Source: a virus
Length of the DNA stretch: 53,572 bases
IMG/VR virus record: IMGVR_UViG_3300045957_000057
Span: 1-53,572 of that record
Strand: one strand, 5' to 3'
A program made the position numbers and the translations under genes. The notes under the pieces were generated by a model that saw only the letters and a list, made by a program, of their open reading frames with translations, was not told the DNA's origin and ran no database searches. Shown here piece by piece: positions 3,996-53,572 of the stretch; within the stretch, counting starts at the first letter, position 1, and each line of letters opens with the position of its first letter.

Positions 3996-4033
3996 GAGGT
4001 CGGCCGGCTCGCTTCCGCCGGTCGGCCGGCCTC
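3996..4033 (+). terminator. Hairpin terminator candidate after major capsid gene
   Basis: GAGGTCGGCC pairs with GGCCGGCCTC (10 bp, one G-U) across an 18-base loop, starting 18 bases after the capsid stop. There is no T-run after it. It would help insulate the capsid transcript from the next gene, which has its own promoter-like box. Confidence 0.5.
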
Positions 4034-4044
4034 GGTCGCTCCGC

Positions 4045-5097: not shown

Positions 5098-5103
5098 GCG
5101 GAC

Positions 5104-5571
5104 ATGACTCTCCCAGCTGCAGATCCAGTCGGCTTCGGTTCCGGCGGTGGAGGCGGTTCCGGCAACTCGACGGCGACGGTGCTGCTCATGCGGGATAGCG
5201 GCAACGACACGCTGTTTCTCCGGCGGTTGCCTCGCAATGAGAGCGGCACACCGGGCACAGCTGTCGACACGCAGCTGGACGGCACGAGCGTCTACACGGT
5301 GACCGGCACGCCAATACCGGTGACCGAGCTGCCACGCGGCCCCGAAGGTTCGGTGACGGTCACCGCGCTTGGCAACTCAGACAATCACACGACGACCGCA
5401 GGCCGTTCGTCGGTGACGTACTTCGTCGAGTCCGCCGGCGTCACGCTCGGTGGAGTCGCCGTGCCGGCGAACACGGCGCACACCGTCGAGATACCGGGTG
5501 GCACGATCCCGGCGCTGTCGTTCGCCACCGATGGCTCCGGCTCGGTGACGATCATCGAAGAGGGGATCTGA
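5104..5571 (+). CDS. Virion structural protein B (unassigned), Gly-rich N-terminus
   Basis: 155 residues. A flexible Gly/Ser N-terminus (GSGGGGGSGN) is followed by beta-rich sequence with LFLRRLPRNESGTPGTAVDT and a C-terminal half rich in Thr, Ser and Val that looks like a beta-sandwich. It comes 25 bases after protein A and has its own class II box. The start overlap at its 3' end (stop codon TGA shares its A with the next ATG at 5571) couples it to the next gene. A partial, diverged copy of its first 72 codons is found inverted at 42938-43155. Function unknown; a decoration or attachment protein is possible. Confidence 0.55.
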   Translation: MTLPAADPVGFGSGGGGGSGNSTATVLLMRDSGNDTLFLRRLPRNESGTPGTAVDTQLDGTSVYTVTGTPIPVTELPRGPEGSVTVTALGNSDNHTTTAGRSSVTYFVESAGVTLGGVAVPANTAHTVEIPGGTIPALSFATDGSGSVTIIEEGI

Positions 5572-6662: not shown

Positions 6663-6898
6663 CGACCGAGGCGCGCAACGTCGTTCTCGTCGTCGGTAGC
6701 TCGCCGGCGTTCGCGCCCGAGGCGCGCAACGTCGTTCTCGTCGTCGGTAGCTCGCCGGCGTTCGCGCCCGAGGCGCGCAACGTCGTTCTCGTCGTCGGGT
6801 CCGACGACCCGGACTTCGTCACCCCTGCCGGCTCCGGCTGGGTGAGCAGCAGCCGCCGGCGCCGCGCTCAGATTCTCGCTCAGATTCTCGGCGCATGA
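6659..6898 (+). CDS. Small protein with perfect 17-residue repeats
   Basis: 79 residues, starting in an ATGA overlap with the previous stop. Two identical units of EARNVVLVVGSSPAFAP plus a partial third make up most of the protein; the end is basic (SSRRRRAQILAQILGA). Each unit looks like a beta strand plus turn, so it may form a small repetitive beta structure. No family recognised. Its place in the virion gene run suggests a small virion or assembly protein. Confidence 0.55.
   Translation: MTTEARNVVLVVGSSPAFAPEARNVVLVVGSSPAFAPEARNVVLVVGSDDPDFVTPAGSGWVSSSRRRRAQILAQILGA
6668..6802 (+). repeat. 51-bp tandem repeat, 2.6 copies
   Basis: Units at 6668-6718 and 6719-6769 are identical at all 51 bases; a third copy at 6770 runs identical for about 30 bases and then diverges. 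Perfect identity at the DNA level, including third codon positions, indicates a recent duplication. Confidence 0.9.
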
Positions 6899-22033: not shown

Positions 22034-22831
22034 ATGGTCTCGACCCTGACCGACAACCGCTGCCGAGCGTGCGGCGGCTCGACCGCAGCCGACATCTCGA
22101 CACACGAAGCGACACCGGACCCGCATCCCGGCTACCTCCTCGAGGTCGACGCCGCGGCGACGTATGCGACGGCCGCCGCAATCGCGACAGCGGTGTCGGA
22201 TCACGAAGCGCTCGCGAACCCGCACCCGGTGTACCTCACGCAAGCAGAAGGCGATGCGGCGTACGAACCGCTCGGCGGTGGCGGCGCCTCGGTCGCAGCG
22301 CACGTCGCTGACGCCGGCGATCCGCACGCCGCGGCCGGCTACACGAAGACGACCTTCGTCGAAGACCGAACCGGTTGGGGCTACTACCAGAACGACACCG
22401 AGACGTCAGGCGCTCCGCTCGTGCTCGTCGCAGCGACACCGGCCGATCTGCCGAACCCGGCCGACACGACGAACGAGAACGAGCTTCCGTCGGACCGGAC
22501 CGACTTCTACGAGACGACGGGGGACACGGTCACGTTCGGCTCGGTCGACGAGCTGGTCGAGATCGAGGTGCAGCTCACCGTCGAAGCCGTCGCCGCTACC
22601 GACTGGCTCGACATCTGGCTCGAAGAGTCCGGCGGCACCGAGCACGGCCGCACGACGTTCGCATTGCCGAAAGGCACGACACCGCAGACGCTCGTGCATC
22701 GGTTCGCTGTCGCTGCGTCGGCGTTGCTCGTCGCCAACGGCGGCACGGTCCGAGTCGAGTCGAACGACGCCGTCTCGGTGTACGACATCCGCTACCTGAT
22801 CAGCAGATCGCACTTCACTCGCACGACGTAG
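22034..22831 (+). CDS. Tail fibre-like protein with DPHPxYL repeats
   Basis: 265 residues. The N-terminal half has repeated DPHPGYL, NPHPVYLTQAEGDAAYEPL and GDPHAAAGYT elements, a pattern seen in many phage tail fibre and needle-like proteins. The C-terminal half is a beta-rich domain (VTFGSVDELVEIEVQLTVEA, DWLDIWLEESGGTEHG, HRFAVAASALLVANGGTVRV) likely to form the receptor-binding or trimer end. CRACGG at residues 9-13 is a lone Cys pair. The last of the virion genes; the following gene is under a class I promoter. Confidence 0.6.
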   Translation: MVSTLTDNRCRACGGSTAADISTHEATPDPHPGYLLEVDAAATYATAAAIATAVSDHEALANPHPVYLTQAEGDAAYEPLGGGGASVAAHVADAGDPHAAAGYTKTTFVEDRTGWGYYQNDTETSGAPLVLVAATPADLPNPADTTNENELPSDRTDFYETTGDTVTFGSVDELVEIEVQLTVEAVAATDWLDIWLEESGGTEHGRTTFALPKGTTPQTLVHRFAVAASALLVANGGTVRVESNDAVSVYDIRYLISRSHFTRTT

Positions 22832-22855
22832 AACTCCAGTGCTAGAGTGGCGGTC
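22829..22855 (+). promoter_or_regulatory. Class I promoter with TAGAAC-N4-GTGCTA dyad
   Basis: Dyad at 22829-22844; its right arm overlaps the -10 box TAGAGT (22843-22848), preceded by TGC as an extended -10. Seven bases later comes ATG 22856, so the transcript is expected to start on the start codon. GGAAACCACTC follows at 22858-22868. Marks the switch from virion genes to the DNA metabolism region. Confidence 0.65.
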
Positions 22856-23122
22856 ATGGAAACCACTCAGCAGCAGAACACACGAGTCGACCGGTTCACC
22901 GAGGTGAAGACGGCAAAGCTCCGTCTGGCGGTCGGCGAGCACAGCGGCGGCGGCACGTTCACCGTCGCCGATCTCAGCAGCGACGCCGGCGGCGTCTGGG
23001 TCACGATCGTCGACGGCGAGTCCGACGGCATCCGCCGCTTCTATCCGATGCACCGGATCCACTCGATCGACGTCGAGTCGTCTCACTTCGACGACGTCGA
23101 TCACGACGAGATCCCGTTCTAG
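22856..23122 (+). CDS. Small protein, unknown (first gene of the metabolism region)
   Basis: 88 residues, leaderless-type start. Begins METT because the motif GGAAACCACTC overlaps its first codons. Contains a compact beta-rich core (TAKLRLAVGEHSGGGTFTVA, GGVWVTIVDGESDGIRRFYP) and an acidic tail (FDDVDHDEIPF), which can mimic DNA or bind proteins. No family recognised. Next gene is 150 bases away. Confidence 0.55.
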   Translation: METTQQQNTRVDRFTEVKTAKLRLAVGEHSGGGTFTVADLSSDAGGVWVTIVDGESDGIRRFYPMHRIHSIDVESSHFDDVDHDEIPF

Positions 23123-25513: not shown

Positions 25514-26100
25514 CCGAGCTGATCAGCGACACGATGAGACTCGTGCTCGAAGCCGAGACCGTCGCCCTGCCGGCACAGACCGGCCCGTACGTCGAGTACA
25601 AGTGCGGCTGCAGCGAGTACATCGGCGACATCGACGCTCACCACTGGAACCGATGCGCTCCGCACGACCGGCATCTCGTCACTCGCTCCGGCGACTCGGA
25701 GATCTGCCGGCGCTGCGAGGTCGTGCATCACTACGTCGACAGCCGGATCGAAGCGGTCACCGGCACCGGCGGTCTCGTCTTCGTCTGGTGGCAAGACGAC
25801 CACGGCTCGAAGTGGATCGGCCGAGCGCTCGGAGCGTCGACCGACGTCTCGAAGTTGCTCGTCGACTCGGCGCACTGCACTGACGAACCGGCGGCCGAGC
25901 CGGAGCCGGAGCCCCGGCAGCGGCGGACGTTCTTCGTCGTCTGGTGCTCGATCTGTGATCCGAAGCCCGACGACCGGCACCCGTCGACGGTGTTCGGCGC
26001 CGAAGACGAGCGCGAAGAGTGGATCGAGCAGCACACCGCCGGACACACCGGCTTCGGTGATGGCGAACCGACGTACACGAGGAAGGAAGCGAAGCGATGA
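25510..26100 (+). CDS. Cys/His-rich protein, unknown
   Basis: 196 residues from ATG 25510 (ATGA overlap). Has YKCGCSEYIGDIDAHHWNRC and EICRRCEVVHHYVD, a possible zinc finger pair, a beta-rich middle (GGLVFVWWQDDHGSKWIGRA) and a second block with FFVVWCSICDPKPDDRHPST. C-terminal region is charged. Function unknown; sits in the operon before the Gam-like gene. Confidence 0.5.
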   Translation: MTELISDTMRLVLEAETVALPAQTGPYVEYKCGCSEYIGDIDAHHWNRCAPHDRHLVTRSGDSEICRRCEVVHHYVDSRIEAVTGTGGLVFVWWQDDHGSKWIGRALGASTDVSKLLVDSAHCTDEPAAEPEPEPRQRRTFFVVWCSICDPKPDDRHPSTVFGAEDEREEWIEQHTAGHTGFGDGEPTYTRKEAKR

Positions 26101-26855
26101 GCGACGACGACATGTTGACCGACCCGTGGGGGATCGCAGACGAGATCGACGGACTCGTCGACGGCTACGACCCGTCGGCCGAAGAACCGCCGACCGTCAC
26201 CGACGAACAGGCCGCCGACTGGGCCGGCCGACGGCTGCTCGCTCTTCGGTTCACAGCCGACGAGATGCGGCAAGTGCAAGCGCAGTACGCCGCCGAGATC
26301 GCCCGGCTCCGACAGCGCCTCGAGGAAGAGATCGCTCGGCTGAACGATCAGCGCGACGAGCACGTCGAGCAGCTGCAGTCGACGCTCGTCGCGCTGTCCG
26401 GCCAGCTGCAGCGCATGCACGCACAGCGGATCGCTCACAGTGAGCAGCTGCACCGCATCGCCGCATCTGCCGCAGCGGACGAGGGCCGGTCGGAGCCGAA
26501 GAAGCGGCTGCCGACGACGATCCGAGTGCCGCACGGCACGCTGCGGTCGCGACAAGCGTCCAGCAACGCTGTCGTGAGCTTCGATCCGGAGCACGAGACC
26601 GACATCGTGAAGTGGCTCGAAGCGAACGGCTACGGCGAAGGCGTGCGGGTCAAGCCGGCGGTCGCTGAGCAGCGGCTCGTCGACAAGCGCAAGCTCGGCG
26701 GGCTGGTGAAGCGTGACGACGACGGCAAGATCGTCGGTCTGACGAACGACGCCGGGGACGAGTGTCCGCACGTCACGGTCACCGACCGAGGCCGTGCGTA
26801 CTGGATCGAGCTGCCGGACGGCCGCAGCTCGAAAGACTGGATGCCCGAGCACTGA
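26097..26855 (+). CDS. Gam-like host-nuclease inhibitor / end protection protein
   Basis: 252 residues. A long coiled coil (about residues 55-125: QVQAQYAAEIARLRQRLEEE and similar) followed by TTIRVPHGTLRSRQASSNAV, then VKWLEANGYGEGVRVKPAVA. This order of coiled coil, PxGTLxxR strand and WLxxNG helix is the Mu Gam-like layout. Such proteins coat DNA ends and block RecBCD/AdnAB-type nucleases. It is next to a Bet/RecT gene, which fits a recombination module. Start overlaps the previous stop (ATGA). Confidence 0.65.
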   Translation: MSDDDMLTDPWGIADEIDGLVDGYDPSAEEPPTVTDEQAADWAGRRLLALRFTADEMRQVQAQYAAEIARLRQRLEEEIARLNDQRDEHVEQLQSTLVALSGQLQRMHAQRIAHSEQLHRIAASAAADEGRSEPKKRLPTTIRVPHGTLRSRQASSNAVVSFDPEHETDIVKWLEANGYGEGVRVKPAVAEQRLVDKRKLGGLVKRDDDGKIVGLTNDAGDECPHVTVTDRGRAYWIELPDGRSSKDWMPEH

Positions 26856-26882
26856 TAGAACGGAAGTACTAGCATGGCTGAC
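26856..26882 (+). promoter_or_regulatory. Class I promoter with TAGAAC-N4-GTACTA dyad
   Basis: Dyad 26856-26871; -10 box TAGCAT (26870-26875); 7 bases; ATG 26883. The Gam-like stop codon lies just before the dyad. GGAAACCACTC at 26885-26895, in the first codons. Drives the recombinase gene. Confidence 0.6.
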
Positions 26883-28142
26883 ATGGAAACCACTCACGAC
26901 GAACAGACGACGACCGACGACGATCCGGAGCTGGAGCTCCCGCCGGTCGAAGAGCAACCGACGACCGACGAGACACCGGCCGAGACCGGCCGAGAGACCG
27001 ACTCAGCGGTCGTGCAGTACACCGACCGAGACCGAGACGTCATCGCGTCCGTCGTCGGTCAAGGTGAGCTGAACGACGACGAGATCGACTTCGTGCTCGC
27101 TCAAGCGAAGCGGCTCGGTCTCGATGTGATGACCAAGCACATGCACGCCTGGAAGCAAGACGGGAAGCTGATCATGATGGTCGGCATCGACGGGCTGCGG
27201 CTCGTCGCTCGCCGCACCGGTCAGTTCCTCGGCCGAGACGATCCGGAGTGGCTGACCGCTGACGGCCGCTGGGTCGATGCGTTCATCACCGGCGCCGACG
27301 GCTACGGCCGGTTCCCGCTCGCAGCTCGTGTGCGAGTGCACCGCCGCGGCGATCTGCATCCGACGACCGGTCTCGCGCTGTGGGCCGAGTCGGCGAAGCT
27401 GTACGCCGACGGCAACCCGAAGGCGTCATGGAAGTCGATGCCGGCGCACATGCTCGCGAAGGTCGCCGAAGCGATGGCGCTGCGAGCTGCGTTCCCGGCC
27501 GAGCTGGCCGGCGTCTACACCGACGACGAGATCGCTCACGCTGACGATCTGCTCGCCGACCGGGGCGATCCGGCGAAGAATCCGGGCGCCGGCGACGAGA
27601 CGATCGCAGCGCTCGAAGCTCGACTCGCTGCGATGCAGCCGGAGACTCGCGCTCGGCTCGAAGGGTGGTGGTCGACGCAGTACGGCCCCGGTGTGCTCAA
27701 CGATCCGAACGTGCTGCCGCTCTCGCAAGGCGGTCTGCACCGGTTCACTGCCGCATCGGAGCACGTGACGTACGTCGAGCAGATGATCGGCCGAGCGGAG
27801 CAGCACGACGCCGACAAGGGCGGCGACAGCTCCGGACCAGAGCCGGAGACGCCGGCGCCGACCGGCACTTCGTCGGCCGGCAAGCCGACCGAACCGTCCG
27901 GCGAGCCGGCACCGTTTACCGATCTCGAGGCGACCGTGCTCGCAGCGCTGGAGATTGCGCCGGAGTCGAACCCCGACGAGATCGCCGCGGCCGGCGGCGT
28001 GCCGAAGGATGCGTCGCTCATGACGGCGATCGCTGCGCTGCTTGAGGGCGATCTGATCGAGCCGGTCGGCGACGGCCGAGGGCCAGCGAAGAAGTACCAA
28101 CGGAACGAACCATTGATCGCCGAGATCGAGGGAGATGCGTGA
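26883..28142 (+). CDS. Bet/RecT-family single-strand annealing protein
   Basis: 419 residues from ATG 26883; the in-frame ATG at 26874 lies in the promoter box. After an acidic N-terminal tail, residues 45-240 match Bet/RecT: LNDDEIDFVLAQAKRLGLDV, KHMHAWKQDGKLIMMVGIDG, LRLVARRTGQFLGRDDPEWL, ASWKSMPAHMLAKVAEAMAL and RAAFPAELAGVYTDDEIAHA. The protein anneals complementary single strands in phage recombination and replication. The C-terminal part after residue 300 is Pro/Ser-rich and ends in a helical pattern (EATVLAALEIAPESNPDEI) looking like a winged-helix tail. No exonuclease partner is recognised nearby; Gam-like lies upstream. Confidence 0.8.
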   Translation: METTHDEQTTTDDDPELELPPVEEQPTTDETPAETGRETDSAVVQYTDRDRDVIASVVGQGELNDDEIDFVLAQAKRLGLDVMTKHMHAWKQDGKLIMMVGIDGLRLVARRTGQFLGRDDPEWLTADGRWVDAFITGADGYGRFPLAARVRVHRRGDLHPTTGLALWAESAKLYADGNPKASWKSMPAHMLAKVAEAMALRAAFPAELAGVYTDDEIAHADDLLADRGDPAKNPGAGDETIAALEARLAAMQPETRARLEGWWSTQYGPGVLNDPNVLPLSQGGLHRFTAASEHVTYVEQMIGRAEQHDADKGGDSSGPEPETPAPTGTSSAGKPTEPSGEPAPFTDLEATVLAALEIAPESNPDEIAAAGGVPKDASLMTAIAALLEGDLIEPVGDGRGPAKKYQRNEPLIAEIEGDA

Positions 28143-34025: not shown

Positions 34026-34300
34026 GCCGGTCATCTGCTCGGAAGCTGCGCCGGCGGCAGGCCGCTCAGCTCGAACGGTCCGGCGCTGATCTGACGAAGC
34101 TGCTGCCGGCACCGCCACAGCCGTCGTGGTGCCACTGGTGGAACCGTGACAAGTCGAAGTGGTACCGGCACGATCCGCGCATCGAGCAGCTGACTCGGCT
34201 GCTGATGACGTCCGCCGATCATCCGGATGTCGTCGCGATCTCGGCCGAGATCGAGCGAGTCGCCGGCGAGCGGCTTGTCAATCTAGAACCGGAGCACTAG
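34022..34300 (+). CDS. Unknown basic protein
   Basis: 92 residues, GTG start in a GTGA overlap. Basic N-terminus (SRSSARKLRRRQAAQLERSG), Trp-rich middle (SWCHWWNRDKSKWYRHD), helical end (LTRLLMTSADHPDVVAISAE). Could bind nucleic acid. Its stop (TAG) sits inside the class I dyad at 34284. Confidence 0.45.
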   Translation: MSRSSARKLRRRQAAQLERSGADLTKLLPAPPQPSWCHWWNRDKSKWYRHDPRIEQLTRLLMTSADHPDVVAISAEIERVAGERLVNLEPEH

Positions 34301-34341
34301 TCTTGACGTTCTAAACCACTCCGAGCGAAGGGAAACCACTC
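34275..34341 (+). promoter_or_regulatory. Class I promoter, extended version with two AAACCACTC copies
   Basis: TTGTCA (34275-34280), 17-base spacer holding TAGAAC, then -10 TAGTCT (34298-34303): the best -35/-10 pair among the class I promoters. The dyad right arm reads GCACTA (one mismatch). The transcript is predicted to start near 34310 and carries AAACCACTC at 34313 and GGAAACCACTC at 34331, then ATG 34345. Here the motif lies in a leader, not in the coding region. Confidence 0.65.
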
Positions 34342-37462: not shown

Positions 37463-37986
37463 AGCAGCCGATCACGCCGGAAGAGCTGCACCGCTCACAC
37501 CGCTGGTTCAAGCTCGACGAACTCCGGCAGCTGCCCGGCAACCCGAACACCGGCGACGAGCAGTCGCTCACCGACTCGATCGACCAGTTCGGATGGTTCG
37601 ACGGCATCGTCGTCGCTGACGGCATCGTGCTCGCCGGCAACCACCGGCTGCAGCGAGCGCTCGACCGAGGCGAGGCCGGTCTGCCGGGATACGACTTGAC
37701 CGGCTTCGACGTGTCCGACGCCGAGCGCATGTCGATGGCGATCACGCACAACCGCACGACTCGGGCCGGTGTCGACGATCCGGAGCTGCTGCGAGCCGCC
37801 CTCGAGACCGTCGCCGTCGACGACCGGCAGCTCGCCGTCGTCGCTGTCGGCCCGGAGCTGGCAGACGACATGCTCGGCCCGGCCGTGGTCCCCGACTTCG
37901 CTCCGCTGCCGCCGGAGTCGCAGCCGAGACTCGACCGCCGCGAGCCGGTCGTCTGCCCGTCGTGCTCGCACTCGTTCCTGCCGTGA
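37459..37986 (+). CDS. ParB-like nuclease-domain protein beside mom-like gene
   Basis: 175 residues. ParB/sulfiredoxin-like domain: WFKLDELRQLPGNPNTGDEQ, LTDSIDQFGWFDGIVVADGI, VLAGNHRLQRALDRG (the GNHR box), then YDLTGFDVSDAERMSMAITH. It lacks a ParB helix-turn-helix. C-terminus has a CPSCSHSF zinc knuckle. Such ParB-like proteins are commonly paired with Mom-type DNA modification genes; the two genes overlap by GTGA here, supporting joint action. Confidence 0.65.
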   Translation: MKQPITPEELHRSHRWFKLDELRQLPGNPNTGDEQSLTDSIDQFGWFDGIVVADGIVLAGNHRLQRALDRGEAGLPGYDLTGFDVSDAERMSMAITHNRTTRAGVDDPELLRAALETVAVDDRQLAVVAVGPELADDMLGPAVVPDFAPLPPESQPRLDRREPVVCPSCSHSFLP

Positions 37987-38750
37987 CAGTCGTCGTCGCT
38001 CCGGTCGAGCACGACGCAGCGACGTTCGCCTGCCGGCACTGGCACTACAGCCGATGTGTGCCGGCCGGCAAGCTCATCAAGTACGGCGCCTGGGAGTCCG
38101 ACCGGTTCGTCGGTGTCGTGCTCTACGGCCGCGGCTCGAACAAGAACCTCGCGAAGTCGTTCGGCGTCGAGACGACCGAGATCTGCGAACTCGTCCGGAT
38201 CGCTCTCGACGAGCACGAGACACCGGTGACGCAGATCGTCGCCGAGACGCTGCGGCAGCTCCGGCAGTCGAACGGCGGGCTGCGTGTCTGCGTCAGCTAC
38301 GCCGACCCGGAGCAGCAGCACGTCGGTCGGATCTATCAAGCCGGCAACTGGACGTACCTCGGTCGGACCGAACCGGCTCAGGAGTACGTCGTCAACGGCG
38401 AGCGGATGCACGGCCGGTCACTGCGAGCGCTCCGCAACGCCTCACCGACCGACACTGCCGAGCACCGGAACGTCGTCAAGTGGGCGCAAGCAAACCTCGA
38501 TCCTGATGCTCGGATGGAGTTCGGCTCGTCGAAGCACCGGTACGCGATGCCGCTCGACAAGCCGATGCGGCGGGCGCTGCGCCGGCGAGCGCTGCCGTAT
38601 CCGGCGACGGTCGACGGCGGCGAACTCGTGCGGTCGGTTGCGCTAGAGTCCTCGGTCACAAGCGGTCGAGGGATCGACGGTGATCCGCCCGGCGTCCAGC
38701 GGGGAGGGGTGAGTTCAACTCTCGCCGACCGCTCGGAGAGCAGCCGATGA
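37983..38750 (+). CDS. Mom-like DNA modification protein
   Basis: 255 residues from a GTG in the GTGA overlap. Residues 1-210 match the Mom-like acetyltransferase-fold family: RHWHYSRCVPAGKLIKYGAW, VLYGRGSNKNLAKSFGVETT, ICELVRIALDEHETPVTQIV, LRVCVSYADPEQQHVGRIYQ and SSKHRYAMPLDKPMRRALRR. Phage Mu Mom alters adenine and protects DNA from restriction. The last 38 residues are encoded by the tRNA-like region and may not be part of the family domain. Confidence 0.75.
   Translation: MTVVVAPVEHDAATFACRHWHYSRCVPAGKLIKYGAWESDRFVGVVLYGRGSNKNLAKSFGVETTEICELVRIALDEHETPVTQIVAETLRQLRQSNGGLRVCVSYADPEQQHVGRIYQAGNWTYLGRTEPAQEYVVNGERMHGRSLRALRNASPTDTAEHRNVVKWAQANLDPDARMEFGSSKHRYAMPLDKPMRRALRRRALPYPATVDGGELVRSVALESSVTSGRGIDGDPPGVQRGGVSSTLADRSESSR
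38644..38649 (+). promoter_or_regulatory. Possible promoter upstream of tRNA-like element
   Basis: TAGAGT, preceded by GCGC; the same hexamer is the -10 of class I promoters at 22843 and 45164. It lies 12 bases before the tRNA-like fold. No clear -35 and no dyad. Confidence 0.35.
38662..38733 (+). tRNA. tRNA-like element with unusual anticodon arm
   Basis: Seven-base acceptor stem GCGGTCG/CGACCGC is perfect. D-arm GGAT/ATCC with 8-base loop; T-arm GTGAG/CTCGC with a canonical TTCAACT loop. Total length 72 with discriminator T. The anticodon arm is odd: CCCGG/CGGGG has one G-G mismatch, position 33 is G instead of U, and the loop is CGTCCAG. By standard numbering the anticodon would be TCC (Gly); if the loop is shifted so T is position 33, it is CCA (Trp). 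No CCA is encoded. It overlaps the 3' end of the mom-like gene on the same strand. Confidence 0.5.
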
Positions 38751-39668: not shown

Positions 39669-39994
39669 TGCCCTGCGGCCAGATGCACGAGCGGCACTGG
39701 TTCACTCGCCGGGGGCTGATGGACACCATGATCAGCGTGCTGCTCGAGGACGGCGGCGGACTCAGCTCGACCGAGCTGCGACAGCTGACCGAACCGCTCG
39801 GCGTGCCGTACGACCGCTTCGACGTCGTGCTGCGGTACCTCGTCCGTGCCGGCGACGTGATCCGTGTCGAACAACCAGACTGGCATCACGTCGTCGAGGT
39901 CCGCGACGATGAGCAGAGCTGGCCAGCCGAGTCGCATCTGTACTTCGCTGACCCGATGGCCGAGACGAGCTGGGCCGCGACCGCAGCGGCATGA
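39668..39994 (+). CDS. Winged-helix-like small protein
   Basis: 108 residues. GLMDTMISVLLEDGGGLSST, ELRQLTEPLGVPYDRFDVVL and RYLVRAGDVIRVEQPDWHHV follow a winged-helix pattern (helix, helix-turn-helix, wing). It directly precedes the large terminase and overlaps it by 4 bases. It may help packaging or regulate; family not certain. Confidence 0.5.
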   Translation: MPCGQMHERHWFTRRGLMDTMISVLLEDGGGLSSTELRQLTEPLGVPYDRFDVVLRYLVRAGDVIRVEQPDWHHVVEVRDDEQSWPAESHLYFADPMAETSWAATAAA

Positions 39995-41565
39995 CCGACA
40001 CGCTCGACCCGCTCGTCGACGAGCAGCTGCTCGATCTGCTGACCGACGACTTCGTCGCACAGCTCGAAGGCGACGAACTCGACGCTCTGCTCGAAGTGAT
40101 GCTCGACACGGTCACCGTGCCCGGACGCCGCGGCCTACAACCGCATCAGCTCCCACCGGCGGACTTCCAAGCCGGAGAGCAGTTCGCTTGGATGTTCCAG
40201 GCCGGCCGCGGCTCCGGCAAGACGATGTCGATGAGCGAAGAGCTGTACGATCACGTCATGCACGGCCCGCCGTGCGACCCGTTCGAGCCCGGCGGTCACC
40301 GGATGGCGATCGTCGCTCCGACGCTCGGCGACGTCGCGTCGTCGTGCTTTCTCGGCCCGTCCGGTCTCCGGCGGATCGATCCCCGGTTCAAGATGGTCTC
40401 TCGGAAGGGCGGCACGTTCGTCATCTTCCCGAACGGCGCCGAAGCGAAGTGCACCGGCGGCAAGACCGAAGACGACACCGAGCGGCTGCGAGCGGCCGGC
40501 AACCTGTGCCGAGCGTGGGTCGAAGAAGCGGCGGCGATCAAGCGGCTCGCTCTCGTGTGGCGTCAGCTGCAGTTCGCCGTGCGGATGGGGCCGCGGCCGC
40601 AAGTGCAGATGTCGTCGACACCGAAGCGGACGACGGCGTTCAAGCGGGTCGTCGACTCGCACCGGGTGACCGTCACTCGTGCCCGGACGGCCGACAACGT
40701 GTATCTGCCCGAGTCGGAGCGCAAGCGGCTGTACGAAGACCACCAGGGCACTCGGCTCGCAGCTCAAGAACTCGAAGGCGAACTCGTCGAAGAGACACCG
40801 GGCGCGCTGTGGACCGGCGACGTCGTCGACGAGCGCCGGATTCTGACGTCGAAGTTGCGGCTGGAGCTCCCGCCGGCGGACGAGACACGAGAGCAGTGGT
40901 TGCGGCGTGCGCTCGGTCTGACGACGGTCTTCGTCGGCGTCGACCCGGCGACGTCCGGCGCCGGCGACCGCACCGGCATCGTCGTCGTCGGCGGCGACAA
41001 CCCGGCGAAGCGGCCATCACGACAGCGTGATGTGTTCTTCCTCGAAGACCGCACCGCGCTGATGGTTCCGTCGACCGTCGATCTCGGCGAAGCGCTCGGC
41101 GACGACAAGCTCGACCCGAACATCGAGGGCTGGGGCGACGTGCTCGGCGAGGTCGCGATCCGGTGGGCGGCCGACGGCGTCGTCGTCGAACGGAACCGGC
41201 TCGGCCGCACCGCTCGCGCCGTGATCCGAGCAGCCGGATTCACCGGTCGGATCATCGAGATCGACGCCAAGGGCTCGAAGGCGAACCGTGCCGACGCTCT
41301 CCGGCAGACGTGGCGGCGGCGCTGCTGGATCGTCGACAAGCTCCGGCATCTCGAGGCCGAAATGACGACATGGGTGCCGGCCGAAGGCGACGATCCGGAG
41401 TTCGACGACGAGGCCGACGATCTGCACGAGTTCACCGGTTCGCCGGACGCTCTGGACGGGGCCGGTCATCCGGCTCGTCTGCTGCTCGGTCTCGAAGAGC
41501 CGATCGTGCCGGACTCCGGCCCGCTGTCGGATGCGATGCTCGCCGGCTGGCAGTCGGTCGCATGA
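39991..41565 (+). CDS. Terminase large subunit
   Basis: 524 residues. ATPase: FAWMFQAGRGSGKTMSMSEE with Walker A G72-T78; ATPase coupling region near LCRAWVEEAAAIKRLALVWR (Walker B-like acidic EE). Nuclease: TVFVGVDPATSGAGDRTGIV with D318 as first acidic residue, later IRWAADGVVVERNRLGRTAR. It translocates DNA into the prohead and cuts it. ATGA start overlap with the preceding gene; the stop overlaps the next start (ATGATG). Confidence 0.9.
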   Translation: MTDTLDPLVDEQLLDLLTDDFVAQLEGDELDALLEVMLDTVTVPGRRGLQPHQLPPADFQAGEQFAWMFQAGRGSGKTMSMSEELYDHVMHGPPCDPFEPGGHRMAIVAPTLGDVASSCFLGPSGLRRIDPRFKMVSRKGGTFVIFPNGAEAKCTGGKTEDDTERLRAAGNLCRAWVEEAAAIKRLALVWRQLQFAVRMGPRPQVQMSSTPKRTTAFKRVVDSHRVTVTRARTADNVYLPESERKRLYEDHQGTRLAAQELEGELVEETPGALWTGDVVDERRILTSKLRLELPPADETREQWLRRALGLTTVFVGVDPATSGAGDRTGIVVVGGDNPAKRPSRQRDVFFLEDRTALMVPSTVDLGEALGDDKLDPNIEGWGDVLGEVAIRWAADGVVVERNRLGRTARAVIRAAGFTGRIIEIDAKGSKANRADALRQTWRRRCWIVDKLRHLEAEMTTWVPAEGDDPEFDDEADDLHEFTGSPDALDGAGHPARLLLGLEEPIVPDSGPLSDAMLAGWQSVA

Positions 41566-41688
41566 TGTCCGAGTCGCAGCTGCTCCGGCTTCGGCTGCAT
41601 CTCCGGACGCTGATCGTTCTGTCGGTCGGCTACAGCGCTGCGATGTTCGTCGGTGTGCGTGCTGACCGGCTGCTCGTCGGCAACCGGA
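41562..41688 (+). pseudogene. 5' part of a small membrane protein gene, split by the foreign segment
   Basis: Starts ATGATG at the terminase stop: MMSESQLLRLRLHLRTLIVL, then SVGYSAAMFVGVRADRLLVG. One membrane helix. After about codon 42 the sequence enters the terminator hairpin and the composition changes; the open frame then runs on to 42143 with unnatural Pro/Arg-rich sequence. A likely 3' remainder in the same frame lies at 43206-43286, so the gene looks interrupted. Confidence 0.55.
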
Positions 41689-41722
41689 AGGGCCCTTCCA
41701 CTTCGGCGGGTGGAGGGGCCCT
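41689..41722 (+). terminator. Hairpin terminator at left edge of foreign segment
   Basis: AGGGCCCTTCCAC pairs with GTGGAGGGGCCCT (13 bp with one G-U) around a short loop TTCGGCGG. No T-run. It lies just at the point where the host-like small membrane gene stops being host-like. Confidence 0.6.
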
Positions 41723-41733
41723 CCCGCGTCCCC

Positions 41734-41742
41734 TGCTACACT
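41734..41742 (+). promoter_or_regulatory. Extended -10 promoter candidate in foreign segment
   Basis: TGCTACACT fits TGN-TANNNT. It follows the terminator by 11 bases and precedes gene A' by about 150 bases. The leader contains the 14-bp palindrome GTGGTGGCCACCAC at 41816-41829. Confidence 0.4.
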
Positions 41743-41815
41743 TGGCCTCGTCTTATCCAGCCCAGGTGGGTCCCGGACGCCGCTGGCTCCGGAGGGCGGT
41801 CCCTGGTGTTGATCC

Positions 41816-41829
41816 GTGGTGGCCACCAC
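41816..41829. repeat. 14-bp palindrome
   Basis: GTGGTGGCCACCAC is a perfect palindrome in the leader of gene A'; a second partial dyad CCACCGACGGTGG follows about 45 bases later. Possible operator or leader structure. Confidence 0.45.
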
Positions 41830-41895
41830 GTAAGCCGCCACGAGGAGCCAGGGGCCAAGCCCACCCCACCGACGGTGGTGGTGCACACTGGCCCC

Positions 41896-43173
41896 ATGAC
41901 TCAACCCACCGGCCTCATCTCCGACGAGCGGCCCGCCTGGTCCATCATCGATGCGGCCCGGGACATCACCGACCTCCCCCTGGTCACCGGCTTCGACTAC
42001 TGGCGCGGCGGCCTCGACGTCTGGTGGCGGGCCGCGCAGATCAACCGCATCCCGATCCGGTCCCTGTTCACGGCGTTCCCCGACGCGTCGATCGCCAATG
42101 TCGCCGACCCCGCGGTCTGGCCCGAAGCCAACGTGGTCATTGAGACCGGGCCCGGGGCCGGCAACCAGCTCGCCACGTTCCCCGACGGGGTGAAGCTGTC
42201 GGCGTCGCCGACCGAGATCACCCGCTTTCGGCCGTTCCGGGTCTACGCCCCGTCGGTCGAGCTTGAGCTCATGCAGGGCACCGGCCCGGGGGTCGGTCAG
42301 GACGACGCCCACGACCAGGCCGTCGCCATCGTCAATGCCCACATCACCGCCGGCGTGGTGGCCGAGTTCGCCGACTCTCTGACGACGAAAAATCCGGGCC
42401 TGTACCGCACAGCGGTCGACCAGTCCGGGCCAGCTGCGGTCGACATGGCGGTCGCCATCGCCACCCTCTACGAGGCCCACGGCCGCCTCCCCGCCGGGAC
42501 CGGCCCCGACAACGATCTCAGCCTCACCGGCGGATCCGGAGACGCCCGCCTGACCGTCCCGTATCACGCCATCCCCGGCCTCGTCGAGCGCAACCTGGCC
42601 CGCTGGCAGGGCGGCCGGCTGATCGACTGCTACGGCAACCCGGTCATCACCGGCCCCGGGTACGTGGGCCGCGGGCCCCTCACGGTCAACGACCCGGACG
42701 TCGCCGTCGACCTTGAGTCCAGCGTCGCCCCGGCCGAGGGCGAAGGGTGGTTCTACATCAGCCACGCCCCCTACGTCGCCGTCGGACCGTTCATGCCGGC
42801 GGTGGAGGGCGAGATCGGGCGGAATGCCCCGCGGGGCGCCCACGCGAAGGCCAACGAGGCCGTGGGCCTGGCCGAGGCCCCGGCCATCGTGGTCTTCCGT
42901 CCCGAGCGGGTGTTCGCCGTCAACACCGTCATCGACGATCGGGGTCGCCCCGGCGGCGGCGGCCGGGGCCAGCACGGTCACGCCATCAAGCTCGGTATCG
43001 ACCGCGGTCTGCGGGGTCCCGGTGTCGGATCGTGGAAGCCGCCGGAGGAACAGGCGGCCGTCGGTGTCGCGCATGACGACAACGGAGGCAGTCGGATTGC
43101 CGCTTCCGCCTCCGCCACCGCCGGCGGTCAGGGGAGTTGGAGCTGGGAGAGTCATGTCACAGAACCTCGTTGA
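41896..43173 (+). CDS. Diverged second copy of virion protein A, chimeric 3' end
   Basis: Open from ATG 41896 for 425 codons. Residues 1-346 are a clear homologue of the gene at 4065: AWSIIDAARDITDL at the start, VVAEFADSLTTKNPGLYRTA (the 4065 copy has AAEFADSLYTKNPGLYRAA) and GLAEAPAIVVFRPERVFAVN near the end. The match is moderate, so this is a distinct, diverged version, not a recent copy. Codon use is richer in CCC/GCC/GGC than the neighbours. After residue 346 (the 33-bp repeat at 42901-42933) the frame runs into antisense of gene B' and is not native. Confidence 0.65.
   Translation: MTQPTGLISDERPAWSIIDAARDITDLPLVTGFDYWRGGLDVWWRAAQINRIPIRSLFTAFPDASIANVADPAVWPEANVVIETGPGAGNQLATFPDGVKLSASPTEITRFRPFRVYAPSVELELMQGTGPGVGQDDAHDQAVAIVNAHITAGVVAEFADSLTTKNPGLYRTAVDQSGPAAVDMAVAIATLYEAHGRLPAGTGPDNDLSLTGGSGDARLTVPYHAIPGLVERNLARWQGGRLIDCYGNPVITGPGYVGRGPLTVNDPDVAVDLESSVAPAEGEGWFYISHAPYVAVGPFMPAVEGEIGRNAPRGAHAKANEAVGLAEAPAIVVFRPERVFAVNTVIDDRGRPGGGGRGQHGHAIKLGIDRGLRGPGVGSWKPPEEQAAVGVAHDDNGGSRIAASASATAGGQGSWSWESHVTEPR
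42901..42933. repeat. 33-bp inverted repeat, left arm
   Basis: The last 33 bases that belong to native gene A' sequence (encoding PERVFAVNTVI). The exact reverse complement occurs at 43172-43204. The 238 bases between arms are inverted relative to native gene order. Confidence 0.9.
42938..43155 (-). pseudogene. Inverted, truncated copy of virion protein B (B')
   Basis: On the minus strand, ATG at 43155 opens MTLPAPTPLTAGGGGGGSGN, matching the 5104 gene (MTLPAADPVGFGSGGGGGSG), then LFLRRLPRSDTGTPQTAVDT. Homology lasts about 72 codons, then the 33-bp repeat takes over. On the same strand just upstream sits the end of a second A' copy (FAVNTVINEVL and stop), so native order A'-B' is preserved on the minus strand. 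Confidence 0.7.
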
Positions 43174-43204
43174 TGACGGTGTTGACGGCGAACACCCGCT
43201 CGGG
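43172..43204. repeat. 33-bp inverted repeat, right arm
   Basis: Perfect reverse complement of 42901-42933. Its outer neighbour bases (43205 on) do not continue gene A' homology; the foreign segment ends here. Confidence 0.9.
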
Positions 43205-43205
43205 C

Positions 43206-43286
43206 GTCGTGATCGGCTGCTGCGTGTGGGCCGCGGCCGTTGCCGGTGTCGTGCTGATGTGGTGTCGGGCGGTCATACAACCGTAG
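43206..43286 (+). pseudogene. 3' part of the split small membrane protein gene
   Basis: In the same reading frame as the 41562 fragment: VVIGCCVWAAAVAGVVLMWC then RAVIQP and stop, one clear membrane helix with native codon use. No start is visible next to it. With the 41562 fragment it would form a two-helix protein once the segment between is removed. Confidence 0.5.
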
Positions 43287-43339
43287 AACCGGCGTGCTAC
43301 TCTTGTGCTCACGTAACCACAAGAGAGGAAACCACTCAC
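43284..43339 (+). promoter_or_regulatory. Class I promoter with a leader hairpin
   Basis: Dyad TAGAAC-N4-GTGCTA at 43284-43299; -10 TACTCT (43298-43303) with TGC before it. Predicted transcript start about 43311, then a leader carrying GGAAACCACTC (43327-43337) and ATG 43340. An inverted repeat CTCTTGTG/CACAAGAG (43300-43307, 43318-43325) spans the start point and could be an operator. Confidence 0.65.
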
Positions 43340-44380
43340 ATGGCACACGAGCTTGAACTCACTGGCGACGGCGTCGCGTCGTTCGCTTACTCGAAGAATT
43401 ACGGCGATCCGTGGCACCGGCTCGGCACTCCGCTCGACGGTCTGTCGGACGTCGACACGATCCTGCAGCTGAGCCGAGCTGACTACGAGGTGCACAAGGC
43501 GACGCTGCTCACGCCGGACCCGGCACCGAGTCGGCGAGACGGCATCGGCCGGCCGATGCTCGACACCGGCAGCTCGTACACGTGGCGCACTCGACCGATC
43601 TGGATCGGCGACGACGGTCAGCCTCGAGGCGGCGACCGGCACGTGCTCGGCATCGTCGGCAACGACTACCCGGTTGTGCAGAACCGGCAGCTGACCGAGC
43701 TGGCCCTGCGACTCGTCGGAGCGCTGCCGGGCGACCGCACGATCGACTGCGCCGGCGTGCTCGACGACGGCCGCCGGTTCTTCTTGACGATCCCGCTCGA
43801 CGACATCGTGCTCGACCCGTCCGGCGTCGCCGACGTGCACGGCCGCAACCTCGTCGTCTCGACCGGTCACGACGGGCACTGGGCGATCAACTTCGTGCAC
43901 GGCATCGTGCGAGCGGTCTGCGCGAACACCGTGCAGGCGGCGAACGACTCGGCGCACTGGCTCGTCACGATCCCGCACCGGGGCAAGTTCGATCCGGATC
44001 GGATCTCGCTGCAGCGTGCGCTCGGTCTCGCCGAGCGCGGCGGCTCGGTGTTCGAGGAGACCGCGGTCAAGCTGCTCGGCATGCCGGCGTCGTTCGACGT
44101 TGTCGTGTCGACGCATGACCGGATCTGGGGCGCTGCTCGTGCGAAGTCGATCCGTGTGAACCGGCTCAACACGCTGGAGACGCTGTGGACGTCAGACACC
44201 AACGTCGGCGCTGTCGGAGCGAACCGGTGGGCGGCGCTGATGACGTTCTCGGAGTACTTCGAGCATCGGCAGCAGTTCGCCGGCTCGAAGCGGCCGGGAG
44301 CTCGACCGCTGCGGGCGACCGGTGTCGGCGGCATGCACACTCGGATCACGCAGGCCCGCAAGATCCTGGAGACGATCTGA
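43340..44380 (+). CDS. DUF932 / phage-plasmid-like protein
   Basis: 346 residues from ATG 43340. The N-terminal YSKNYGDPWHRLGTPLDGLS (W-H-x-L-G-T box), a middle KNRQLTELALRLVGAL-type helix block, FLTIPLDDIVLDPSGVADVH, NFVHGIVRAVCANTVQAAND and FDVVVSTHDRIWGAARAKSI follow the DUF932 (TIGR03299-type) family found in phages and plasmids. Function unproven; associated with replication or recombination modules. First gene behind a class I promoter, likely early. Confidence 0.75.
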   Translation: MAHELELTGDGVASFAYSKNYGDPWHRLGTPLDGLSDVDTILQLSRADYEVHKATLLTPDPAPSRRDGIGRPMLDTGSSYTWRTRPIWIGDDGQPRGGDRHVLGIVGNDYPVVQNRQLTELALRLVGALPGDRTIDCAGVLDDGRRFFLTIPLDDIVLDPSGVADVHGRNLVVSTGHDGHWAINFVHGIVRAVCANTVQAANDSAHWLVTIPHRGKFDPDRISLQRALGLAERGGSVFEETAVKLLGMPASFDVVVSTHDRIWGAARAKSIRVNRLNTLETLWTSDTNVGAVGANRWAALMTFSEYFEHRQQFAGSKRPGARPLRATGVGGMHTRITQARKILETI

Positions 44381-45096: not shown

Positions 45097-45152
45097 TGAC
45101 ACCGGAGCAGATCGCCGTCGAAGCCGCCGGGTCGACCGACGTGCAACCGTAG
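45096..45152 (+). CDS. Possible very short ORF ending in the class I dyad
   Basis: 18 codons (MTPEQIAVEAAGSTDVQP) in a TGATG overlap, stopping at TAG that forms part of the dyad TAGAAC. A similar QP-stop precedes the dyad at 43284. May be a relic or a leader peptide; low confidence. Confidence 0.25.
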   Translation: MTPEQIAVEAAGSTDVQP

Positions 45153-45176
45153 AACCGACGTACTAGAGTGGTGCTC
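45150..45176 (+). promoter_or_regulatory. Class I promoter with TAGAAC-N4-GTACTA dyad
   Basis: Dyad 45150-45165; -10 TAGAGT (45164-45169); 7 bases; ATG 45177. GGAAACCACTC at 45179-45189 within the first codons. The nearest copy in form to the one at 22829. Confidence 0.65.
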
Positions 45177-45347
45177 ATGGAAACCACTCACGACACAGCA
45201 CCGCTCTACATCAGCGAGCAGCGCGGCATCATCCGCTGCGGCCGTCACGGCGGCATGTACATGGAAACGGCCTACGCCGCCGACCAGGGCGCCGACGAGC
45301 TGACAGACTGCGATCCGGACGCTTCTGATCTGCGAGGCGTGTGCTGA
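45177..45347 (+). CDS. Small protein, unknown
   Basis: 56 residues, leaderless-type start; begins METTHDTAPLYISEQRGIIR. Has C-G-R-H and other Cys/His residues, possibly metal-binding. Coupled to the next gene by TGATG. Confidence 0.5.
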   Translation: METTHDTAPLYISEQRGIIRCGRHGGMYMETAYAADQGADELTDCDPDASDLRGVC

Positions 45348-49814: not shown

Positions 49815-51403
49815 CGATCAGACGCCGGCAGCAACCGATCTCGGCTGCAGTCGTCGCAGCACCGGGCGGTAACGGCCACACGCTCGGGCATGCTGTGACG
49901 GCCGCCGCCGGACCGGCGTACGAGTCGAACCGGACCGACGGGCTGCCCGACTTCGCTCTGACAGCGCAGCAAGTCGAGATCGATCGGTACGTCGACTGCG
50001 TCGGCTGGGCCGGCTTCTACGTACAGATCAAGGCGATGCTCGGAGCGATGTGCCCGTGGATTGTGGAGCAGCGGCAAGGCGTCGAGTGGGTGCGAGTCGA
50101 GGATCCGAGAGTGAACGCTCTCGCGTCGCTGATTCAGCCGCCGACTCGGTCGCAAGCCGGTCTGCGGTTCCGGTCACTGATGTTGCAGTCGTCGATCGCC
50201 GAGCATGCGTTCTGGCCGGCGCACACGAAGCGGCGCGGTCTCGTCTTCGACATCGCTCACCCTGGGCAGCTTCGGCGGTCTCCGGACTCGTCTGACCGGT
50301 TCGTCGTTCGCACTCGCTCAGATGCCCGGCTCGGCGGGCCCGGCTGGCATGAGTACGGGCTCGAACGGCTCCGGCGGCACTGGATCCCCAACCGGCGGTG
50401 GACCGACGAAGCCGATCCGGAGCTGTCGACCGTGCTGACCGAGCTGCGACTGTACGAGTCGACCGTGCTCGACCTGCTCCGAGCTTCGCAGTCACGCATG
50501 GTGATGAACGGTCTGCTCTACATCCCGACGATGCCGACCGGCTCGAACGCTGACGGTGGCATGTGGGCGACCGAGCAGTCGATCGACGCGTCGTCGCCGG
50601 CGGTGCCGTCGACACCGGCCGGCGGTGGTCTGATGAAGCTGATCGCCGACATGAGCGCGTTCGGTGCTCGGGCCTACCGGGATCATCTCGGCAACGACGT
50701 CGCCTCGGCGATGCCGTACCCGTTCCCGCACTTCGCCGAGCCGAAGATGCTCGACATGGGCCGACCGATCTCGGCCGAAGCTCTCGCAGCGCTCGCCGAG
50801 GTCGTCTTCGCAGCCGCTCGAGGCTTGCATATTCCGTCGCAGTTCCTCGTGTCCGGCGAGGCGTCAGCGAATCACTGGGGCGACGCTGAGCTTCGCCGTG
50901 CGCTGCACGAGCGGGCGGTGTTCCCGGAGCTGGAGCCGAACAACGAGTTCTGGACCGAGGTCGGTCTGCGGCCGATCATGGAGGTGACTCGGGCCGGTGG
51001 GCTCGTGCTCCGTGACGACGACCCGGCTGACTACCGGCTCGGGTGCGACACGTCGGTGCTCGACATCAAGTCGGACTCGCTGCAGGCGATCGCTCTCGCT
51101 CACTCGACCGGCGCTGCCGGTCGTTCGTGGCTGGCGGCGAAGCTCGGCATCCCTGAGTCGGAGATGCTGCGGCTGCCGCACGACGTGACCGAGTACGAGC
51201 AGTGGCTTTACTCGAAGTCGTCGTCGGCTCGTGCCGGTGGTGAGGCGGCGCGAGACGGGCTGACACCGGGGTCGATGCCGGGCCCGCAAGCCGGTGACGA
51301 GCCGGGCTCGGGTGTCGGTCCGGCTGTGCCGTCTGTCGACGCTCCGACCGAGCCGGAGGTGACCGCCGGTGCTCTGCGGTTGATCGCCGGCGGGGGCCGC
51401 TGA
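49811..51403 (+). CDS. Portal protein
   Basis: 530 residues, GTG start. Portal pattern: FYVQIKAMLGAMCPWIVEQR near the start, MLQSSIAEHAFWPAHTKRRG, LERLRRHWIPNRRWTDEADP, LLRASQSRMVMNGLLYIPTM, FGARAYRDHLGNDVASAMPY, ARGLHIPSQFLVSGEASANH and a long C-terminal helical region. It forms the ring at the head vertex through which DNA passes. Followed by the MuF-like gene with a TGATG overlap. Confidence 0.85.
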   Translation: MTIRRRQQPISAAVVAAPGGNGHTLGHAVTAAAGPAYESNRTDGLPDFALTAQQVEIDRYVDCVGWAGFYVQIKAMLGAMCPWIVEQRQGVEWVRVEDPRVNALASLIQPPTRSQAGLRFRSLMLQSSIAEHAFWPAHTKRRGLVFDIAHPGQLRRSPDSSDRFVVRTRSDARLGGPGWHEYGLERLRRHWIPNRRWTDEADPELSTVLTELRLYESTVLDLLRASQSRMVMNGLLYIPTMPTGSNADGGMWATEQSIDASSPAVPSTPAGGGLMKLIADMSAFGARAYRDHLGNDVASAMPYPFPHFAEPKMLDMGRPISAEALAALAEVVFAAARGLHIPSQFLVSGEASANHWGDAELRRALHERAVFPELEPNNEFWTEVGLRPIMEVTRAGGLVLRDDDPADYRLGCDTSVLDIKSDSLQAIALAHSTGAAGRSWLAAKLGIPESEMLRLPHDVTEYEQWLYSKSSSARAGGEAARDGLTPGSMPGPQAGDEPGSGVGPAVPSVDAPTEPEVTAGALRLIAGGGR

Positions 51404-53271
51404 TGCGCCCGCCGGCGGCTGCTCAGCAGATCGCCGAGCGTGCTCTTGGTCAGCTGTCCGGACCGGAGAGGGCCGCGGCTGATCTTCCGTGCCGGATTGC
51501 TGCCGGCACGGATCTGTCGTTCACCGAGATCGCCGCGATCCAGGGTGTGATGCTGCTCGACGACAGCTCGGCCGAGCAGCGTCTCGCTCGGCAGCTGCTC
51601 GGTGGTGAGCCGATGGCGCGGGCAGTCGCCGCGGCGGCGTCTGTAGAGCAGGCGGTCGGCCAGCCCGATCCGGGGCCGCACACCGGCGCGATGCTCGCCG
51701 GCGTCGTTCCCTCCGACGTTGCCGAGCAGCTGTCGGTGTCGGACGGGCTGCCGGTCGGCGATCTGCACGTGACGCTGTTCTTCTTCGGTGACGCCGCCGA
51801 TCTTGACGAGTCGACTCGGCAGAGCATTCGGTCGGTCGCTCAGCAGTTCTCGGCTCGGATGCCGATCTCGGTGATCGCCGGTCATGTTGGGCATCTCGGC
51901 GACGCTGAGCGAGACGGCGCTGTCGCTGTGGCGTACGAGCTGACCGCTCCGGCGCTGCACGAGCTGCATGCCGAGATGCAGCAGCAGCTCGATCAGCTCG
52001 GTGTCGAGTACTCCGACCGGTTCGCATTCCGGCCGCACTTGACGATCACGTATCTGACGCCGGACGAGGCCGAGTCGAGCTGGCCGGAAGGGCCGGTCGA
52101 CCAGCCGGTCGAGTTCGAGCTTGCCGGCGTCGCCGCCCGGTTCGGCGACGAAGACGGCGATACGGACCTGATCGAGCTGCAGGCGCCGCCCACATCGCCG
52201 GTGACGGCCGCCGGGGCCGCTGTCGGCTATCCGGTGCTCTCCGGCGCTCTGACCGAGCTGAACGGCTTCCTGGCGTCCGTCGACCGAGATCTCGGTGTCG
52301 AAGTCCGGACAGCGGTCGAGATCGGTTGGCGGTCGTCGCTCGACCGTGTCGGCCGGATGGCGACACGGCGAGCCGCCGCCGCCGCTCAGCGGCAGCTCAT
52401 GCAGATCGAGCCGGGGGCCGCGGCCGTGCACGCCGCCGCTGATCTGTCCGGTCTCGACGTCGACGCTCTGATCGGTCCGGCAGTCGACGACATCGCTCGA
52501 CACGTCGAGCGCAGGGCCGCGACCGTGCAGGCCGTCGTCGCCGGCCGGATCGGTGAGCTGTTCGGCGTCGACATCTCGAACGTGTGGCCGGAGCCGGCCG
52601 AGATCCGCACGCAGCTCGCCGATGCGATGACGGCGGAGCTTCAGCGCACGCTCGGCCGGCTCGGCGACCGCGATCGGATCGATCCGACAGCGACCGAGGC
52701 CGATCCGCTGCTCGCTCCGTATCAGCTGACTCGCAACGTGCTCGCGTTCGCCGGCGGCGCCGACATCGTCGACGGCGGCATCCGGCGAGACGGCATCGGC
52801 CGGCCGCTGACTGCACGGCTGACCGCCGGCGCCGACTCGGTGCCGCTCGGGCCGGGCACGATCGAGCTTGTGCGTGATGCGCTCGTCTCATGGTCCGATG
52901 CCGGCGTAACAGCCGCGGCACGACGCCGCGCCGGTGCCGCGATCTCGGACGAGCTGCGGGCGGAGTTATCCGAGGTCGCCTCGAGGATGGCCGGAGCGTC
53001 GGAGCAGCCCCCGCTTGAACAGGTGACCGTGCACACGTGGCGGCTGAACCTGAACGGCCGAGCGATCGAGAACCTGCCGAGGCACGAGAAACTTGCCGGC
53101 ACGACTGTCGCTTCGGTGTCGGATCTGCAGCAGCTCGCCGACGCCGCGGCCGATCCGAACGACTGGCCCGGTGTTTCGTACTCGCATCCGGGCGACCATC
53201 GGCACTGCCACTGCGGCTGGGACACGCACATCGAGCTGCGACCGGTGCAGCTCGCTCTTCCGGTGTCGTAA
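51403..53271 (+). CDS. MuF-like head protein fused to a 2H phosphoesterase domain
   Basis: 622 residues. Residues about 95-250 form a 2H phosphoesterase domain: VGDLHVTLFFFGDAADLDES with H122-x-T, then SDRFAFRPHLTITYLTPDEA with H212-x-T; two H-x-T motifs about 90 residues apart define the LigT/2H fold. The C-terminus ends with WPGVSYSHPGDHRHCHCGWD, the MuF-type PGDH-x-C-x-C signature of head morphogenesis proteins, and the middle is helical. Known 2H enzymes cleave 2'-5' or cyclic nucleotide bonds, or act on RNA ends. Being in a head protein, the domain could enter the cell with the DNA; this is inference. Confidence 0.75.
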   Translation: MRPPAAAQQIAERALGQLSGPERAAADLPCRIAAGTDLSFTEIAAIQGVMLLDDSSAEQRLARQLLGGEPMARAVAAAASVEQAVGQPDPGPHTGAMLAGVVPSDVAEQLSVSDGLPVGDLHVTLFFFGDAADLDESTRQSIRSVAQQFSARMPISVIAGHVGHLGDAERDGAVAVAYELTAPALHELHAEMQQQLDQLGVEYSDRFAFRPHLTITYLTPDEAESSWPEGPVDQPVEFELAGVAARFGDEDGDTDLIELQAPPTSPVTAAGAAVGYPVLSGALTELNGFLASVDRDLGVEVRTAVEIGWRSSLDRVGRMATRRAAAAAQRQLMQIEPGAAAVHAAADLSGLDVDALIGPAVDDIARHVERRAATVQAVVAGRIGELFGVDISNVWPEPAEIRTQLADAMTAELQRTLGRLGDRDRIDPTATEADPLLAPYQLTRNVLAFAGGADIVDGGIRRDGIGRPLTARLTAGADSVPLGPGTIELVRDALVSWSDAGVTAAARRRAGAAISDELRAELSEVASRMAGASEQPPLEQVTVHTWRLNLNGRAIENLPRHEKLAGTTVASVSDLQQLADAAADPNDWPGVSYSHPGDHRHCHCGWDTHIELRPVQLALPVS

Positions 53272-53403: not shown

Positions 53404-53572
53404 ATGACCGACGACGATCGTCTGCCGCCGACCGGCGCTAGGAGTGCGATGACGAAGCCTGGCGCTATTGAATGGTGGCACTGCCTCGACGTGTGGACGT
53501 CGCTCGGCGGCCACCCCGCCAAGTTCGATGAGTGGATCGCTGAGCCTCGCAGGACACGGGCAGACGCTTGGG
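53404..53572 (+). CDS. 5' part of the gene spanning the circular join
   Basis: Starts MTDDDRLPPTGARSAMTKPG and continues WWHCLDVWTSLGGHPAKFDE into the terminal repeat; after closing the circle it runs to 419 (about 183 residues). TATGAT box ends 6 bases before the ATG, and the hairpin lies about 20 bases upstream. Unknown head-module protein. Confidence 0.6.
   Translation, partial: MTDDDRLPPTGARSAMTKPGAIEWWHCLDVWTSLGGHPAKFDEWIAEPRRTRADAW
53537..53572. repeat. 36-base terminal direct repeat (copy of 1-36)
   Basis: TCGCTGAGCCTCGCAGGACA and the next 16 bases are identical to positions 1-36. The reading frame is continuous when the copies are merged. This most likely marks a circular assembly of a circularly permuted or circular molecule, not a packaged end repeat. 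Confidence 0.9.

Follow-up and report, generated by a model that had tools for sequence, protein, structure and literature searches.

A folded-back foreign segment in a phage genome record as a probable template-switch chimera with a related phage

Genes at the locus and their foreign composition

The window analysed here is the whole of the IMG/VR virus record IMGVR_UViG_3300045957_000057, a single stretch of 53,572 bases. The same 36 bases stand at both ends (1-36 and 53537-53572), and the contig closes to a circle of ~53,536 bp; 36 bp is not a length typical of the k-mer overlaps that current assemblers leave. A segment whose features are collected in Table 1 separates the terminase gene (39991-41565) from the DUF932 gene (43340-44380). 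The foreign character that the original prediction ascribed to it was borne out. The codon chi-square of A', a homologue of native protein A carried by the segment, is 124.7, whereas native blocks of 346 codons (n=231) average 42 and do not exceed 107. GGCCC/GGGCC occurs 26 times in the segment, as against a mean of 4.0 and a maximum of 11 in 490 native windows, which makes it 6.5 times denser. A two-model Markov scan, with the segment interior and the rest of the genome as training sets, gave a score of 149.5 and edges at most 5 bp from those based on the sequence itself; the next donor-like stretch genome-wide scores only 10.1, so that there is no second such stretch. The segment is real in the sequence, far beyond chance. 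Its right end stands at 43204 as originally placed, and the left edge is corrected from 41689 to 41687/41688.

Table 1. Positions of the features discussed, in window coordinates
Feature	Position	Strand	Basis or remark
Whole foreign segment	41688-43204	none	Composition (codons, k-mers); ML edges 41683 and 43199
Candidate left half of native small membrane-protein gene, 42 codons	41562-41687	+	Codon score; overlaps terminase stop
Foreign non-coding leader (208 nt), upstream of A'	41688-41895	+	Native coding scores strongly negative in all six frames
A', foreign counterpart of native protein A	41896-42933	+	44% identity over 346 aa, E=5e-75
Inverted-repeat arm 1	42901-42933	+	PERVFAVNTVI codons, A' 3' end
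Putative fold-back junction	42934-42938	none	One mismatch, then ACGA on both sides
B', first 74 codons of foreign B homologue, inverted, truncated	42934-43155	-	Similarity to native B
Second copy of A' 3' end (PERVFAVNTVINEVL*), including arm 2 (43172-43204)	43157-43204	-	
Candidate right half of native small membrane-protein gene (VVIGCCVWAAAVAGVVLMWCRAVIQP*)	43206-43286	+	In frame with left half
Native protein A	4065-5078	+	Downstream of probable major capsid gene
Native protein B	5104-5571	+	
Mu Gam-like protein	26097-26855		
RecT-family recombinase	26874-28142		E=1.7e-17

The DNA on either side of the segment may belong to one small gene. On the left, frame 0 is the sole plus-strand frame with a native-like codon score (13.7), and the N-terminal half of its product has one hydrophobic stretch. 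On the right, the frame chosen is the best plus-strand frame by codon score, yet that score is weak (0.9). Rejoined, the flanks give in frame an open reading frame of 68 codons with two hydrophobic or membrane spans and no evident loss of native sequence. These features are suggestive of a single native membrane-protein gene of 68 codons interrupted by the insert.

Within the segment, a hairpin stands at the very edge of the leader (about 41688-41725; -33.4 kcal/mol, z -3.0). It has no T tract, and a TACACT hexamer resembling a -10 element lies 3' of it. A consensus scan of the segment found neither a sigma-70 promoter nor a T-tailed terminator, and the segment's own terminator and promoter, as originally proposed, come down to this strong hairpin and the -10-like hexamer. 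The gene content proposed for the segment was, by contrast, confirmed: a diverged second copy of A begins at 41896, and the 74 reversed codons of B' are an inverted, truncated copy of B. A' keeps 346 of 350 codons, after which its frame reads on for 79 codons across antisense B'; the missing last four codons (NEVL, stop) are found on the reverse strand. A' had no match in Pfam or in PHROGs, and AlphaFold2 applied to A with two sequences gave a pLDDT of 30. In B', whose first 62 residues are 59% identical to native B (E=7e-17), there is no stop and no frameshift across the 74 codons.

The native genes lie ~16 kb from the insert on the circle; there B follows A, downstream of the probable major capsid gene, and this is also their order in the insert. 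A G+C-rich inverted stretch is found by eye 5' of native A too (about 3996-4035). Because the order behind the capsid gene is the same, the donor would be a related phage with that head-gene order and the insert one syntenic donor piece. Native B and B' have identical sequence over 18 nt at their starts (5101-5118 and 43141-43158; GACATGACTCTCCCAGCT), with several codons uncommon in native genes, although the two genes have otherwise diverged strongly; this 18-nt stretch is perhaps a conserved initiation element.

Elsewhere in the record, a promoter-like family, TAGAACnnnnGnnCTAnnnT, occurs in five plus-strand copies (22829-22868, 26856-26895, 34284-34341, 43284-43337 and 45150-45189) and in none of 100 shuffles. 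The exact 11-mer GGAAACCACTC comes after every copy, at a start codon or close to one, and in three of the five the leader itself contains an ATG (ATGGAAACCACTC); the family is likely to be a phage-specific promoter and translation leader. A Mom-family DNA-modification protein (37962-38750, E=5e-45) is encoded along with the Mu Gam-like and RecT-family proteins in a phage with no detected integrase. A native stretch of unusual composition contains a perfect 51-bp tandem repeat of 2.6 copies (6666-6798), which encodes 17-residue repeats, RNVVLVVGSSPAFAPEA. Adjoining the portal gene is a gene (51403-53271) for a 622-aa protein with a 2'-5' RNA ligase/LigT-like domain, which also matches a head maturation protease family in PHROGs.

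The inverted repeat and the fold-back junction

The two arms listed in Table 1 form the perfect 33-bp inverted repeat of the original prediction, which extends to 38 bp at 97% (42901-42938 and 43167-43204). No longer exact inverted repeat occurs in the 53.6-kb window. Second in length among those reported is a 24-mer inverted match at 13278/52278, which looks like a chance match inside coding sequence (GATCGACACCGAGATCTCGGTCGACG region). The codons of the arm specify the C-terminus of A', where PERVFAVNTVI aligns with PVRVHAVEVTL in native A. The repeat is nothing more than the 3' end of A' present twice, with both arms taken from one donor stretch. Native B has TGTPIPVTELPRG at the point where B' continues as DDGVDGEHPLG, which is antisense A'; the second arm is therefore probably not part of B'.

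At the point where the donor sequence turns back on itself, TCGT pairs with ACGA of A', and GAT pairs also beyond one mismatch. The pairing amounts to 7 of 8 positions over TCGTCGAT/ATCAACGA, its exact length being uncertain. The donor points joined here lie ~228 nt apart in inverted orientation. Turning the 238-bp centre (42934-43171) around restores the A'-B' order, as had been foreseen: A' regains its last four codons and B' falls in place. The flip does not make B' whole, however, since it still ends after 74 codons.

Origin of the segment

We consider it very probable that the segment is a fold-back template-switch chimera with a related phage, whatever the setting in which it was made; this part of the original prediction is upheld by composition, homology, topology and junction complementarity together. 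The edges, the homology to A and B and the topology support it, the arms are A' coding sequence rather than a separate site, B' is incomplete in either orientation and A' lacks its proper end. In terms of the minus strand, the growing chain would leave the phage's own template at 43205 and move to the related phage's DNA near the 3' end of A'. From there 271 nt of donor would be copied forward into B', whereupon the 3' end, ...GATCGTC, would fold back ~228 nt onto the A' 3' end, with TCGT pairing with ACGA. Some 1.25 kb would then be copied back through A' as far as the strong hairpin before it, and the strand would return to the original template beside its exit point. Such a return to the first template is proposed as the reason why the two flanks still fit in frame. 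The outcome would be a foreign insert in a membrane-protein gene, with a single inverted repeat marking the A' stretch copied twice. We infer both this order of events and an in vitro rather than a cellular setting.

We lean somewhat towards an origin of the chimera in vitro, by phi29-type amplification or by assembly of reads so produced. The fold-back form, three joins within 1.5 kb with nothing functionally complete among the products, and the coincidence of a break with the strong hairpin at the left edge all point that way. The lack of decay, with identical arms and a useless B' fragment still open, speaks for an artefact or for a very recent event. In 475 chimeras from MDA, 85% were inverted, the points joined were mostly <10 kb apart, and 2-21 nt of complementarity was present at >70% of junctions (Lasken and Stockwell 2007, PMC1855051). 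Here, too, an inverted join links points a few hundred nucleotides apart on one molecule (~228 nt, well below 10 kb), with a few complementary bases at the junction, and the geometry of the segment matches the main class of those chimeras; unlike them, it has three joins and two source genomes and stands in a consensus rather than in single reads. The last point weighs against an origin in vitro: in the consensus of such a contig, whose ends overlap by 36 bp, chimeric molecules that are rare would ordinarily be outvoted. A simple random chimera, moreover, would not re-enter at the same place unless the strand regained its first template. Collapse of the repeat in a de Bruijn graph was set aside as an explanation, as arms of 33 exact bp alone do not explain three joins.

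The same chimera might instead have been made in vivo, by a switch between phages during co-infection, replication or RecT-assisted annealing, and would then be a recent templated insertion; this we regard as possible but the less probable setting. In its favour, genes for a RecT-family annealing protein and a Mu Gam-like protein are present in the phage, the insert is in the consensus, and the return to native sequence is clean and in frame. On the other hand, no homology was found by which an exchange could have been directed here, the native counterparts of A' and B' lying ~16 kb away on the circle, and a useless B' fragment has persisted without decay. No donor-recipient homology is visible at the borders 41687 or 43205, the donor genome not having been found. 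Fold-back products fixed in phage populations have, to our knowledge, seldom been described. Rad52-like phage recombinases swap diverged DNA between phages, the median piece being 404-494 bp for temperate and defective phages (PMC3945230). Those mosaics resemble the present case in that a relative's fragment lies inside a phage encoding such a recombinase (here RecT), and differ from it in that the fragment here is at a non-homologous site, folded back and with B' truncated. Fold-back inversions or inverted duplications are also known in yeast and human genomes, and they (PMC7467729, PMC3907307) share with our segment short inverted arms around a non-repeated spacer; here the arms are only 33-38 bp and lie inside a foreign phage insert. 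A more specific version, in which a real and recent fold-back templated insertion from a co-infecting relative into the small membrane-protein gene gives a second expressed protein A, is unlikely.

The remaining probability is divided among a functional accessory gene, a switch, a cassette and explanations not foreseen here. Phage morons are extra genes with their own leader and a foreign composition, situated between operon genes. A' resembles them in being an extra gene of foreign composition that is open, lacks little of its length and has a leader and hairpin of its own, and one could picture it as a leader-driven alternative A to which the fold-back is incidental; DUF932, which keeps a promoter-like motif of its own (43284-43303), need not be silenced by such an insert. 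Yet a moron is complete and brings its own promoter and terminator, which cannot be said of A'. In place of its last four codons stand 79 codons of antisense B', it lacks a consensus promoter or terminator, and the segment disrupts a native gene and carries a truncated inverted fragment, which together make this reading very improbable. Less credible still is an invertible switch, in which a recombinase would flip 42934-43171 between the 33-bp arms. The perfect arms around a 238-bp centre and the restoration of A'-B' order by the flip recall the Gin/Min invertible phage switches, in which a short stretch lies between inverted repeats. Unlike those, the present locus has no recombinase, no dedicated site and no complete alternative product: the arms are conserved C-terminal codons of A' rather than crossover sites, one donor stretch explains both, and B' stops at 74 codons in either orientation. 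Profile matches to resolvase (PF00239) and tyrosine integrase (PF00589) are absent from the whole record, a result that concerns phage-encoded genes and leaves room for a host enzyme, while the controls were positive in 10 and 14 of 14 genomes, respectively. A mobile cassette or transposon-like insertion, to which the foreign composition and the discrete insertion point would be congenial, is the least likely of all. The segment contains only A' and part of B', with no recombinase or transposase gene; its ends (AAGGGCCC... and ...CCGCTCGGG) are unrelated, which leaves no terminal inverted repeats, and reading the flanks by eye gave no target-site duplication at the joins. As the repeat is the duplicated coding end of A', there is no resolvase or integrase, B' is truncated both ways and neither terminal repeats nor target duplication are present, the originally suggested switch or cassette is not supported.

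Donor search and meaning for the record

The donor was sought by scans of viral contigs and genome contigs and by tblastn in phages, and no relative of A, A', B or DUF932 was found in any of them. Queries against the viral contigs were A, A' or B, in the form of a protein, an alignment or a degenerate motif, and also TerL and DUF932; searches with a single protein find only close relatives, and records closely resembling the window may be absent from the collections. TerL matches phages at <60% identity, at about 25-37% among the matches listed, and no near TerL was found. From the insert it follows that another phage, in which the genes A and B have the same order, was present in the sample or the cell, one that left no trace in the collections searched.

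On present evidence, the segment is no new kind of genetic element; it is ordinary in kind and useful as a warning. Positions 41688-43204 should not be trusted without read data and should be masked or checked against reads. If the segment is an artefact, then unless the locus is masked the public record would be credited with a head-gene duplication and a mosaic phage. A real segment would be a clean example of template switching with fold-back between two phages.
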